A DNA stretch of 64,000 bases from Immundisolibacter cernigliae. GTDB lineage: Bacteria > Pseudomonadota > Gammaproteobacteria > Immundisolibacterales > Immundisolibacteraceae. Positions 13,642 through 21,282 of the stretch are shown here, in pieces. The notes under the pieces are model-generated. The model saw only the letters and a list, made by a program, of their open reading frames with translations, had not been told where the DNA came from and ran no database searches. The translations under genes were made by a program, and so were the position numbers. Positions within the stretch are counted from its first letter, which is position 1, and every line of letters starts with the position of its first letter. The stretch spans positions 434,001-498,000 of the forward strand of contig NZ_CP014671.1 in NCBI RefSeq assembly GCF_001697225.1, read 5' to 3'.

Positions 13642-13674
13642 CCGGGTGCAGCGCCCTGTAGGAAATGGCACCCG

Positions 13675-13924
13675 GTGGGAGCGGCGCCCCCGCCGCGAAG
13701 TTACAGAAGATTCGGCCCGAGGCGGGCCTCCCACAGGGATTTTTCCAGTGAAGATCGGCCCGGGGGCGGGCCTCCCACGGGCTTCTCCGGTGGGAGCGGC
13801 GCCCTCGCCGCGAAGTTACAGAAGATTCGGCCCGAGGGCGGGCCTCCCACAGCACTTGGCTTGAGGGTGGGAGCGGCGCCCTCGCCGCGAATCTGCAGTT
13901 CGGCCCCGGGGCCGGGCCTCCCAC
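13675..13924. repeat. REP/BIME cluster, seven units
   Basis: Fills the xerC-fnr gap (convergent genes). A units (GTGGGAGCGGCGCC..) at 13675-13699, 13790-13814 and 13867-13891; B units (TTCGGCCCGAGG..GGGCCTCCCAC) at 13710-13734, 13753-13778, 13825-13850 and 13899-13924. A and B alternate in opposite orientation, as in bacterial interspersed mosaic elements. Placed between convergent genes they may also end transcription. No other feature is seen in this gap. Confidence 0.9.
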
Positions 13925-13927
13925 GGC

Positions 13928-14695
13928 TCAGGAAGCCCGGCTCTGGTCGTCTGCCGACAGCTGCCCCGAGAAGGCCGCCAGCGCAATGCTGTTGGTGATG
14001 CGTACCAGACGACCGTTGACATCCACCAGCCCATCGCGCTGCAGCTTGCCGAAGGCACGGCTTACCGTTTCGGCCGCCAGGCGCAGATAGGCGGCGATGT
14101 CCTGGCGGGACATCGGCAGATTGAACTCGGTCGCCGAGAAGCCGCGCCGCGCGTAGCGCTGCGACAGATCGAGCAGCAGCAGCGCCAGGCGTCGCTCCGG
14201 CGAATGGTCGCCCAGGGTCAGCAACTGCTGCTCCTTGCCGGCAATCTCGCGGCTCATCAGGCGCATCAGCTGGTGCTGCAGGGCCGGCACGCGGGCCGCC
14301 GCGTGTTCCAGCAGATCGAACGGCACCTCGCACACGCCGGCCAGCTCCAGGGCCTGAGCGGTGAGCTGATGGCGGTGCTCGACCATGCCGTCCAGGCCAA
14401 TCACCTCGCCGGGCAGGTGAAAGCCGATGATCTGCTCGCTGCCGTCCGCACCCAGGATGTAGGTCTTGACCGCGCCACTGCGCGGCACGTAGATGGCCCG
14501 GAACGGCTCGTCGGCCCGAAACAGTGTCCTGCCCCGACTGAATGGGCGGCTGCGGGACACGATGCGCTCCAACTCGGCCACATCGGCATCGTTCATGCCG
14601 TAGGGCAGGCAAAGGTCGTGCAGGTTGCAGGTGCTGCAGGCAGCCTTGAGGCCGCTGAGCGTGACGACGTTTGCCGTGGGGGAATCGGCTGTCAT
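13928..14695 (-). CDS. fnr: FNR-type oxygen-sensing transcription regulator
   Basis: 255 residues. Cluster cysteines are C20, C23 and C29 (ACSTCNLHDLC) and C122 (AGVCEV), the same positions as in E. coli FNR, so a 4Fe-4S oxygen sensor is expected. The recognition helix has E209, S212 and R213 (AETVSRAF), the residues that read the TTGAT half site. The cAMP-type beta-roll and dimer helix lie between. Two sites resembling FNR boxes occur in this window, at 16956-16969 and 21269-21282. Could equally be named anr. Confidence 0.95.
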   Translation of the reverse strand: MTADSPTANVVTLSGLKAACSTCNLHDLCLPYGMNDADVAELERIVSRSRPFSRGRTLFRADEPFRAIYVPRSGAVKTYILGADGSEQIIGFHLPGEVIGLDGMVEHRHQLTAQALELAGVCEVPFDLLEHAAARVPALQHQLMRLMSREIAGKEQQLLTLGDHSPERRLALLLLDLSQRYARRGFSATEFNLPMSRQDIAAYLRLAAETVSRAFGKLQRDGLVDVNGRLVRITNSIALAAFSGQLSADDQSRAS

Positions 14696-16157: not shown

Positions 16158-16880
16158 CTAGCCGGCCAGCGCGGCCAGTTTGGCGGCGAGCTCGGCGTCG
16201 CTGTCGTGGCCGGCCTCGCCCCAGAACACGCTGAACTCGCGCTTACTGATGGCCGGATCGGTGACGCAGGCCAGCATCACGCGCGCCAGATCGGCGCGGG
16301 CAATCTGGTAGCGCATCTCCAGTGGCCGGTCCTCCCCCGTGATGGTCAGCGCGTGGGCACCGCCGGGTTTGTCGTTCAGGATGCCGGCGCGCACGACGGT
16401 CCAGTCCAGGCCGCTTTTTTTCAGGTACTCGGCCTTGTCGATCGAGTGGTCGCGCAGGCCCGGCTTGACCCAGTTCAGAATTTTCATGCCGGTGGACGGG
16501 ATGGACAAACCAATCGTCGACAGCAGCACCAGCCGGCCCTTGAAGCCGCGCTGCTTGCAGGCTTCCACGGTGTTGACCAGGCCGCCGTACATCACGGCGC
16601 GGATCTTCTCGCGGCTGGCGAACATGCCCCGGCCGGCAATACCACCGGTGATGTCGACCGTGAACACGATGCCGGCCCAGTCCGGATCGATGGCCTGCGC
16701 CAGGGTCTCCGGGCGCGTGACGTCGCCATACACCAGCGTCGCCTTGTCACCGAACAGGCCGCGCGCTTTCTCCACGCTGCGCACCACGGCGGTGGCCGGC
16801 CGGCCGGCGTCGATCAACTGGCGCATGGCGGCCAGTCCCGTGCCGCGCGTGGCGCCGATCACGGCAATCGTGTCGTTCAT
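16158..16880 (-). CDS. NAD(P)-binding SDR/NmrA-like protein
   Basis: 240 residues with an N-terminal Rossmann motif GATRGTG (IAVIGATRGTGLAAM) and a second conserved region LVLLSTIGLSIPSTG, then DWTVVRAGIL. It is an atypical short-chain fold of the NAD(P)H-binding (NmrA/YwnB) group rather than a classical YxxxK dehydrogenase. The substrate is unknown. It is divergent from the dioxygenase at 17089 and shares the intergenic region with the FNR-like box. Confidence 0.82.
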   Translation of the reverse strand: MNDTIAVIGATRGTGLAAMRQLIDAGRPATAVVRSVEKARGLFGDKATLVYGDVTRPETLAQAIDPDWAGIVFTVDITGGIAGRGMFASREKIRAVMYGGLVNTVEACKQRGFKGRLVLLSTIGLSIPSTGMKILNWVKPGLRDHSIDKAEYLKKSGLDWTVVRAGILNDKPGGAHALTITGEDRPLEMRYQIARADLARVMLACVTDPAISKREFSVFWGEAGHDSDAELAAKLAALAG

Positions 16881-16955: not shown

Positions 16956-16969
16956 TTGATACCGGTCAA
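16956..16969. promoter_or_regulatory. FNR/ANR-like box before the dioxygenase operon
   Basis: TTGATACCGGTCAA matches TTGAT-N4-ATCAA with one difference. Its centre is 126 bases before the GTG of the dioxygenase alpha gene. If a transcript began at about 17004 (class II spacing), the -10 region would fall at AATATG (16992-16997). The site is also about 80 bases upstream of the divergent gene at 16880. Confidence 0.55.
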
Positions 16970-17088
16970 GAGGCCGCGGGCGCGCGCTTCCAATATGCGC
17001 GGCGTACGCACCTGGCAGTGCCTACGTGCCGTCGCCCTGCCCGGACCGTGCCGGGCGACATCCCCACACCAAGGAAGGAGGGTTTCGC

Positions 17089-18411
17089 GTGAAAGACGTC
17101 AGCAAGTTGATCCTGGAAGACGGCGCGGTGCAGGACCGCCGCATCTACTGGGATCAGGACATCTACGAGCAGGAGCTGGAGCAGATCTTCGCCCGCGCCT
17201 GGCAGTTCCTGGCCCACGAGGGGCAGATTCCGAACGCCGGCGACTTCCTGACCACCCGCATGGGCGAGGACAACGTCATCGTCGCCCGCCAGCCGGATGG
17301 CACCATCAAGGCCTTCATCAACTCCTGTCCGCACCGCGGCAACGTGGTCTGCCACGCCGACACCGGCAACGCCAAGGCCTTCACCTGCGCCTACCACGGC
17401 TGGGCCTTTGGCCTGGATGGCGCGCTGGCCACCGTACCGCTGGAGCACGACGCCTATTACGACGCCATCGAGCGCCCGCGCTACGCCATGCACCCGGTGG
17501 CCAAGGTGGAGAGCTACAAGGGCCTGGTGTTCGGCACCTTCGACGCCAGGGCGCCGTCGCTGCGCGACTACCTGGGCGACATGGCCTGGTACATGGACAC
17601 CTTCCTTGACGTGCCGGGCGGCATCGAGCTGCTCGGTCCGCCGATGAAGTCGATCCTGAACTGCAACTGGAAGGTGCCGGTCGAGAACTTCATCGCCGAC
17701 GGTTACCACGTCGGCTGGGCACACGCCGCGGCGCTGAAGGCCATCGAGTCCCCGCTGTCGCCGCTGGCCGGCAACCAGGCCTACGACGTCAACACCGGCC
17801 TGCAGGTCGCGACCCGTGGCGGGCATGGCTTCGGCGTCATCTGGGATGCCGCGGCTGCCATCCATCCGGAGGGGGGGGCCTTTCGCGACTGGCTGGCCAA
17901 GCGCACACCGATCATCCGCGAGCGGCTCGGCGAATGGCGCTCGCGCTTTTACAACGGTCACTGGGACGCCAGCATCTTCCCGAACTGCTCGTTCCTGTAC
18001 GGCACCAACACCTGGAAGCTGTGGCTGCCGATGGGCCCGCACAACATCGAGGTGTGGACCTGGACCCTGGTCGAGAAGGACATGCCGGCTGAGCTGAAGC
18101 AGATGATGGTCGCCACCAACATGATGACCTTCGGCACTGCCGGCATGCTGGAAACCGACGACGGCGAGAACATGGAGCAGTGCACCGGCAGCAATCGGGG
18201 CTGGGTGACGCGCCGCGGCAAGCTGTACTCGGGCATGGGCCAGGTGCGTGAAGGCCGCCACCCGGAGCTGCCCGGCATCATCGGCAAGGGCATCGTGTGC
18301 GAGACCTCCAACCGCGGTTTCTACCGCCGCTGGGCCGAGCTGATGAGCGGCCGCAGCTGGGAAGAAGTCGCCCGCGAACCGCGCTCCGCCCCCAACCGCG
18401 AGGTGGCCTGA
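17089..18411 (+). CDS. Aromatic ring-hydroxylating dioxygenase, alpha subunit
   Basis: Catalytic large subunit of a three-component Rieske non-heme iron dioxygenase. Rieske ligands are C80-P-H82 and C100-A-Y-H103 (NSCPHRGN, TCAYHGWAF). Mononuclear iron ligands H207 and H212 and the bridging D204 lie in FIADGYHVGWAH. The GTG start at 17089 follows a very strong ribosome site (GGAAGGAGGG, 6-base spacer) and gives 440 residues. An 8-G run at 17871-17878 lies inside the gene in frame (HPEGGAF). The substrate cannot be read from sequence; the length and pairing with a beta subunit fit PAH/biphenyl-type enzymes. No ferredoxin or reductase gene is nearby. Confidence 0.93.
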   Translation: MKDVSKLILEDGAVQDRRIYWDQDIYEQELEQIFARAWQFLAHEGQIPNAGDFLTTRMGEDNVIVARQPDGTIKAFINSCPHRGNVVCHADTGNAKAFTCAYHGWAFGLDGALATVPLEHDAYYDAIERPRYAMHPVAKVESYKGLVFGTFDARAPSLRDYLGDMAWYMDTFLDVPGGIELLGPPMKSILNCNWKVPVENFIADGYHVGWAHAAALKAIESPLSPLAGNQAYDVNTGLQVATRGGHGFGVIWDAAAAIHPEGGAFRDWLAKRTPIIRERLGEWRSRFYNGHWDASIFPNCSFLYGTNTWKLWLPMGPHNIEVWTWTLVEKDMPAELKQMMVATNMMTFGTAGMLETDDGENMEQCTGSNRGWVTRRGKLYSGMGQVREGRHPELPGIIGKGIVCETSNRGFYRRWAELMSGRSWEEVAREPRSAPNREVA

Positions 18412-18412
18412 C

Positions 18413-18964
18413 ATGAATGCACCGACCCAGATCAAAACCCCGGCCAACCCACGCTACGTGGACCGCGACACGCTGTTCGAGGTCGAGCGTTTCCTGATCC
18501 GCGAAGCGCGCATGCTGGATGAGGAGCGCTTTCGCGAGTGGTGGCAGACGCAGCTGACCGAGGACATCCACTACGTGCTGCCGGTGCGCGAAATTCGCAT
18601 GCGCGCCAACAAGCAGCCGATCGGCAGCAACCCCGGCGCGTTCGTCTTCAACGACAACTACGGCATGCTCGACATGCGCATCCGGCGCCTGGAGACGGGC
18701 CTGGTGTGGATGGAGGACCCGCAAAACTACATCCGCCGCTTCATCAGCAACATCGATGCGGCCTGGGCCGACGTGGACGGCGAAGTCGACGCCTGGTCGA
18801 ACTTCATCGTCTACCGCAACCGCCGCCAGCGCGACGAGACCGTGGTCTGGGGCACCAAGCAGTGCCGCCTGCGCAAGGTGGACGGTCAGTGGAAGCTGGC
18901 CGGCCGCACCATCCTGGTCGACCAGCGCGTGGTGCTGGACAAGAACCTGTATTTCTTCCTGTAG
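18413..18964 (+). CDS. Aromatic ring-hydroxylating dioxygenase, beta subunit
   Basis: 183 residues, starting 1 base after the alpha stop codon. The small-subunit (NTF2-like fold) features are LFEVERFLIREARMLDEERF near the N-terminus, the stretch RRFISNIDA and the end KLAGRTILVDQRVVLDKNLY. It supports the alpha3beta3 hexamer and has no catalytic role. The pair ends in a strong hairpin, so the operon is just these two genes. Confidence 0.93.
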   Translation: MNAPTQIKTPANPRYVDRDTLFEVERFLIREARMLDEERFREWWQTQLTEDIHYVLPVREIRMRANKQPIGSNPGAFVFNDNYGMLDMRIRRLETGLVWMEDPQNYIRRFISNIDAAWADVDGEVDAWSNFIVYRNRRQRDETVVWGTKQCRLRKVDGQWKLAGRTILVDQRVVLDKNLYFFL

Positions 18965-19966: not shown

Positions 19967-20010
19967 CCGGCTATTGACCCGATCTATAAAAATCCCGGGT
20001 CAATAGCCGG
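19967..20010. terminator. Bidirectional hairpin between tadA and hydrolase
   Basis: CCGGCTATTGACCC at 19967-19980 is repeated as its exact complement at 19997-20010, with a 16-base loop. It lies between convergent genes. There is no strong T run on either side, so it may act as a barrier rather than as a classic intrinsic terminator. Confidence 0.6.
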
Positions 20011-21268: not shown

Positions 21269-21282
21269 TGGATTGTAATCAA
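21269..21282. promoter_or_regulatory. FNR/ANR-like box upstream of the universal stress gene
   Basis: TGGATTGTAATCAA matches TTGAT-N4-ATCAA with one difference. It lies between ihfB (starts 21197, minus) and the Usp gene (starts 21357, plus). In pseudomonads several usp genes are under Anr control, which would fit. A TACCAT at 21315-21320 could be a -10, but the spacing is not the usual class II distance. Confidence 0.45.

Follow-up and report, generated by a model that had tools for sequence, protein, structure and literature searches.

Conserved FNR-type boxes before ring-hydroxylating dioxygenase operons of Immundisolibacter suggest activation at low oxygen

The textbook FNR protein is an anaerobic switch, inactivated by the very oxygen that ring-hydroxylating dioxygenases (RHDs) need. 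At the class II promoters of E. coli FNR and Pseudomonas ANR, a TTGAT/C-N4-A/GTCAA box stands about 41 bases before the transcription start, with a -10 hexamer and without a -35, and is served by a regulator with four cluster cysteines (Cys4) and an ETVSR recognition helix. These features are shared by the RHD locus of Immundisolibacter cernigliae described here, a genome in which ccoN and an OmpW-like gene are boxed too. OprG is a relative of OmpW. Its gene belongs to the core ANR regulon of Pseudomonas (PMC6588701). The regulons differ in content, as the boxes kept in all three Immundisolibacter genomes mostly precede oxygen-consuming enzymes, whereas the words dioxygenase, oxygenase and aromatic are absent from the main text of the paper on the Pseudomonas core regulon (PMC6588701).

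For RHD operons, the nearest published system is that of DPR-1 and DPR-2 in Cycloclasticus P1, CRP/FNR regulators which control RHD operons with c-di-GMP (PMC8547461). Like the system proposed here, it relies on activators of the Crp/Fnr family that act on several RHD operons of a gammaproteobacterial PAH degrader, but the DPRs respond to c-di-GMP and PAH (with PdgC), whereas the regulators considered here are Cys4 FNRs, and no box was found at any of the five Cycloclasticus RHD loci with enough upstream DNA (two more were excluded). Another precedent is the globin gene vgb of Vitreoscilla, which is under positive FNR control and can raise dinitrotoluene (DNT) dioxygenase activity (PMC3962134). 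The globin gene of I. cernigliae is likewise boxed, with CATAGT 21 bases after the box; the Vitreoscilla pairing of globin and dioxygenase was, in contrast, engineered, and the dioxygenase is not described in that paper as FNR-controlled. Herbaspirillum seropedicae shares the presence of several FNR paralogues that share and divide promoters, but there the described targets are components of the electron transport chain, the word dioxygenase is absent from the main text of the report (PMC5934665), and the residue at position 154 is Glu instead of the Lys or Arg discussed below. Among the papers listed in a literature search of limited coverage, none besides the Cycloclasticus DPR work deals with an FNR box before RHD genes.

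The window analysed is a stretch of 64,000 nucleotides (NZ_CP014671.1, positions 434,001 to 498,000) from I. cernigliae, a species reported to carry many RHD copies (PMC9535955). On its plus strand lie the genes of an RHD alpha subunit (17089..18411; Rieske and Ring_hydroxyl_A, with HcaE as the nearest NCBIfam model, below its cut-off) and an RHD beta subunit (18413..18964; PRK10069, over the cut-off). The alpha subunit starts with the GTG at 17089, preceded by the ribosome-binding site AAGGAAGGAGG (the AAGGAAGGAGGG region, 17071..17082, plus strand, recognized by eye). The FNR-type box, TTGATACCGGTCAA, occupies 16956..16969 of the plus strand, 119 bases before the GTG, and is a strict match to TTGAY-N4-RTCAA, with the half-sites TTGA(T/C) and (A/G)TCAA on either side of the N4 spacer. 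The -10-like hexamer CAATAT (16991..16996, plus strand) follows 21 bases after the box, and places the probable transcription start at 17003..17004 on the same strand. Relative to this start, the box is centred at about -40.5/-41.5, as at class II promoters. There is no -35 hexamer at the right place in this promoter. The initial annotation, which had described an FNR-like box about 120 bases before the alpha gene and a possible -10 at class II distance, was thus borne out on both counts. At this promoter the two congeneric genomes G001 and G002 keep only the 14-mer, at the orthologous place, and the -10 spacing, with the hexamers CACTAT and CGATAC, respectively. A GC palindrome around the box (GCGGCC...GGCCGC) was considered as a separate operator and rejected, as it is not kept in the congeners.

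Several other elements of the window may be recorded here. A one-mismatch FNR-like box, TGGATTGTAATCAA, lies at 21269-21282, about 70 bases upstream of the gene of a universal stress protein (PF00582), and genes of this kind are often under ANR. By eye, an inverted repeat, GCTATTGACCCG...CGGGTCAATAGC, was seen at 19971-20008, between convergent tadA-like and alpha/beta-hydrolase genes, and is possibly a two-way terminator. Behind the FNR-1 gene, at 13660-13930, a GC-rich extragenic repeat (GTGGGAGCGGCGCC... / ...GGGCCTCCCAC), REP-like by eye, is present in several copies. Names such as hemA and prfA, for genes that are given no family assignment, are presumed from the sequence.

Within the window, three box matches with at most one mismatch compare with 2.1 expected in shuffles, and the box is therefore not provable from the window alone; the proof comes from its enrichment across the genome (3,243,537 bases in one contig, with 73 matches to the window alpha subunit, fragments included). 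The box before the window operon is one of 24 distinct sites that match the strict pattern TTGAYN4RTCAA, compared with five for the pattern read backwards. The 300-bp windows upstream of RHD alpha matches hold seven of the 24, although they add up to just 0.67% of the genome length (binomial p = 2e-10), and an eighth (2331708) stands before a beta-alpha operon, 61 bases upstream of its RHD beta gene. Since the box at 213594 sits between two divergent RHDs, the eight boxes serve nine RHD alpha genes, that is 9 of the 73 matches against none in a background of ten 20-kb stretches (200 kb) with 181 called genes (Fisher p = 9e-6). The perfect TTGAN6TCAA occurs eight times (seven distinct sites) in the 32.9 kb upstream of RHD matches and is absent from this background. 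By our own gene calls, 23 of the 24 strict boxes are intergenic and the remaining one (1508147) is at a gene junction, in comparison with a background that is 10% non-coding. About 64 of the 73 RHD matches have no strict box, so FNR is no general RHD regulator. One-mismatch sites add six further matches upstream of RHDs, two of them (2626545 and 3045818) with a -10-like hexamer at +21; they were left out of the count because they are equally frequent in the background (0.21/kb) and upstream of RHDs (0.18/kb). The idea that the boxed RHDs form a single enzyme subfamily was discarded, as the BenA model places five of them among its best 20 of 72 matches and the other four elsewhere, which amounts to only a weak preference.

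Boxes also accompany genes other than those of RHDs. A catechol 2,3-dioxygenase gene (TIGR03211, 364 bits against a cut-off of 320) has one box before and one behind it (locus L104, 2087-2100 and 3102-3115), both kept in the two congeners. Others precede the globin gene (PF01152), a fatty-acid-desaturase-family gene (PF00487), the OmpW-like gene (below its model's cut-off), a Haem_oxygenas_2 gene, a pyridine-nucleotide oxidoreductase gene and an Fe-S subunit gene that diverges from that of an acyl-CoA dehydrogenase, and one is upstream of a CoxB/aa3 oxidase operon region (600822). The cbb3 oxidase gene ccoN (TIGR00780) has a one-mismatch box, CTGATTTCGATCAA; ccoN is a classical FNR target, and many bacteria use FNR-type proteins to switch it on when oxygen is low. 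Elsewhere in the genome, two strict boxes 66 bases apart (1472183-1472262; locus L100, 2684-2763) lie in a long interval that holds no called gene and are not kept in the congeners.

The spacing seen in the window recurs across most of the set. With a -10 weight matrix entered by hand, offset 21 gave the best -10 score among offsets 8-59 over the nine RHD-facing directions, which none of 2000 shuffles reached. Good hexamers at +21 are present in six of the nine (CAACAT, CAATAT, CAGAAT, CACAAT, TCTAAT and CACAGT), as well as after the boxes of the catechol 2,3-dioxygenase (CAGAAT) and ccoN (CACACT) genes, and the -10 at +21 points, on its sequence, to a class II FNR geometry common to the RHD operons and ccoN. 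The three directions in which no -10-like hexamer stands at +21 (213794+, 2320084 and 2772904-) mean that not every box need activate the adjoining RHD; at the box at 2773050, a good -10, AAGAAT, faces the neighbouring Haem_oxygenas_2 gene and not the RHD. One boxed RHD alpha gene (genome 2771474-2772904; locus L082, 1475-2905) is broken by a single TAG; its box is conserved, and it is this box whose good -10 faces the Haem_oxygenas_2 gene.

Conservation of the 14 bases in relatives was one test that the initial annotation had set for its proposal, and the box came through it. Each of the eight RHD boxes has a counterpart at the orthologous position of both congeners, G001 and G002, while of the 16 non-RHD boxes five are kept in both congeners, four in one and seven in neither, absences from G002 being soft because it is a draft of 330 contigs. 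RHD boxes account for 8 of 24, 8 of 17 and 8 of 15 strict sites across the three Immundisolibacter genomes. Comparisons within 12 promoter triples gave 192 identities out of 192 for the half-sites (partly owing to how these were found), against 474 of 744 (64%) for the flanks and 117 of 144 for the -10 hexamers. In a sister genus of the same family (g2), all three orthologues of the window alpha subunit (67-70% identical) carry the variant CTGAY-N4-GTCAA 86-87 bases upstream, as CTGACCTGGGTCAA, CTGACATGGGTCAA and CTGATATGGGTCAA. Outside the genome, 80 RHD homologue loci were taken, of which 78 had 150 bp or more of upstream sequence and were examined; one has a perfect box (L203, from a congener) and four have one-mismatch sites, the three of the sister genus and L229 from Plasticicumulans. 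The last is probably due to chance, and apart from it no box was seen before RHD homologues outside the family among these 78 loci.

The regulators that would read the box can be narrowed down. Six Crp/Fnr proteins of the genome exceed the Pfam cut-off, and only two of them, FNR-1 and FNR-2 (57% identical), combine an ETVSR recognition helix with the four cluster cysteines, three in an N-terminal C-x2-C-x5-C and a fourth in the centre; the E-x-x-S-R helix is absent from the other four. FNR-1, encoded in the window at 13928..14695 on the minus strand, is the complete FNR that had been noticed 2.3 kb from the box; the distance is 2.26 kb, and the 255-residue protein scores 244 bits with the NCBIfam Fnr model PRK11161, over the cut-off of 228. 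FNR-2, with 252 bits, is encoded at genome positions 2319175-2319930 (locus L072, 1176-1931), directly before the alpha gene of a boxed RHD that resembles benzoate dioxygenase. The end of the FNR-2 gene and the box of the RHD at 2320084 are about 12 bases apart. G001 and G002 retain both proteins, with the ETVSR helix and with unchanged neighbours, FNR-1 near the orthologue of the window RHD and FNR-2 beside the other RHD.

What sets the pair apart is the position of Asp154 in E. coli FNR (the numbering agrees with the FNR alignment and with the text of PMC4214427), which is Lys in FNR-1 and Arg in FNR-2 in six of six congeneric sequences. Among 19 other gammaproteobacterial FNRs there are 11 Asp, four Glu, four other residues and no basic one, so that an acidic residue here does not define membership in the family (four of the 19 lack it), and its loss bears instead on oxygen control. 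In E. coli the acidic residue keeps the apo-protein a monomer, and the D154A variant of FNR is described as dimeric without its cluster and of raised activity in air, with a cluster that still reacts with oxygen (PMC4214427). By analogy, FNR-1 and FNR-2 may tolerate some oxygen and act while it is still present.

We consider it likely that the RHD operon of the window is activated at low oxygen by FNR-1 or FNR-2, acting in class II fashion from the 14-mer. The box would be the binding site of an FNR-family dimer, formed by either paralogue, and would be placed where a class II activator contacts RNA polymerase, at a promoter that has a -10 and lacks a -35. As oxygen becomes scarce, FNR with its [4Fe-4S] cluster would bind and turn on the alpha-beta operon. 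The initial annotation had left two directions of control side by side, readiness for low oxygen and repression in anoxia, and it is the former that is favoured, because of the activator-type -10 spacing, the missing -35 and the same layout at ccoN. The opposite direction, in which FNR would block RNA polymerase and so spare the cell a useless dioxygenase when oxygen is lacking, would fit with the overlap of the box and the -35 region. Oxidases of the aa3 type are often repressed by FNR/ANR proteins, and the box upstream of the aa3 operon region would fit as well. Repression is nonetheless unlikely, as the -10 stands at the activating distance and a promoter without a -35 in place should be weak in the absence of an activator.

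A different regulator has also to be weighed against FNR-1 and FNR-2. A ligand-driven Crp/Fnr protein of the DPR-1/DPR-2 type, working with c-di-GMP and unrelated to oxygen, has its published precedent in a PAH degrader, Cycloclasticus (PMC8547461), and the Lys or Arg in place of Asp154 could mean that oxygen control is loosened in both FNRs. We nevertheless think this rather improbable, given the four cluster cysteines and model scores of the FNR pair, the lack of a matching helix in the other Crp/Fnr proteins, the boxless Cycloclasticus loci and the shared architecture of ccoN. The suggestion that the divergent NAD(P)-binding gene (16158..16880, minus strand; NAD_binding_10) is the true target, with the dioxygenase as a bystander, could not be sustained and is highly unlikely. 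Its ATG is just 75 bases from the box, with TTAGAAT between them, but the hexamer at +21 in that direction is AGCGCC, which is no -10, while TTAGAAT itself is at 37-38 bases, an unusual position for an activator, and is missing in G002; the other boxes, moreover, track RHD genes regardless of the gene on the opposite side. That the palindrome arose by chance and has no function would agree with the count in the window, which is near expectation, but hardly any weight can be given to this in view of the genome-wide RHD enrichment, the fixed -10 spacing and, above all, the conservation in five relatives.

If activation by FNR-1 or FNR-2 is correct, the same switch would extend to the seven further RHD boxes, to the genes of the catechol 2,3-dioxygenase and the bacterial globin, and to the operon of the cbb3 oxidase. 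Oxygenase and high-affinity oxidase would then be raised together, so that ring oxidation could continue in hypoxic, hydrocarbon-rich soil. A bolder proposal, which we put forward tentatively and which may well prove wrong, is that in Immundisolibacter the anaerobic switch FNR has been remade into one that answers to hypoxia and serves oxygenases, with a duplicated FNR pair, in which Lys or Arg takes the place of the Asp154 brake on dimer formation, partly active in the presence of oxygen and driving a conserved, oxygenase-rich core regulon; its members would be the genes of the eight RHD boxes, the catechol 2,3-dioxygenase and the desaturase-family gene, plus the globin and the cbb3 oxidase. 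The placing of an oxygenase behind an FNR box had at the outset been called unusual, and so it is when compared with textbook FNR regulons; within the genus it is a common pattern and no single oddity.

A conserved FNR regulon made up mainly of oxygenases would, if true, help to explain how the oxygen-dependent breakdown of pollutants persists at the edge of anoxia, the common state of oily soil. With such a regulon one could also test directly whether natural substitutions at position 154 give FNR another oxygen set-point. For these degraders, the level of oxygen, besides the substrate, may set the expression of ring-hydroxylating dioxygenases.
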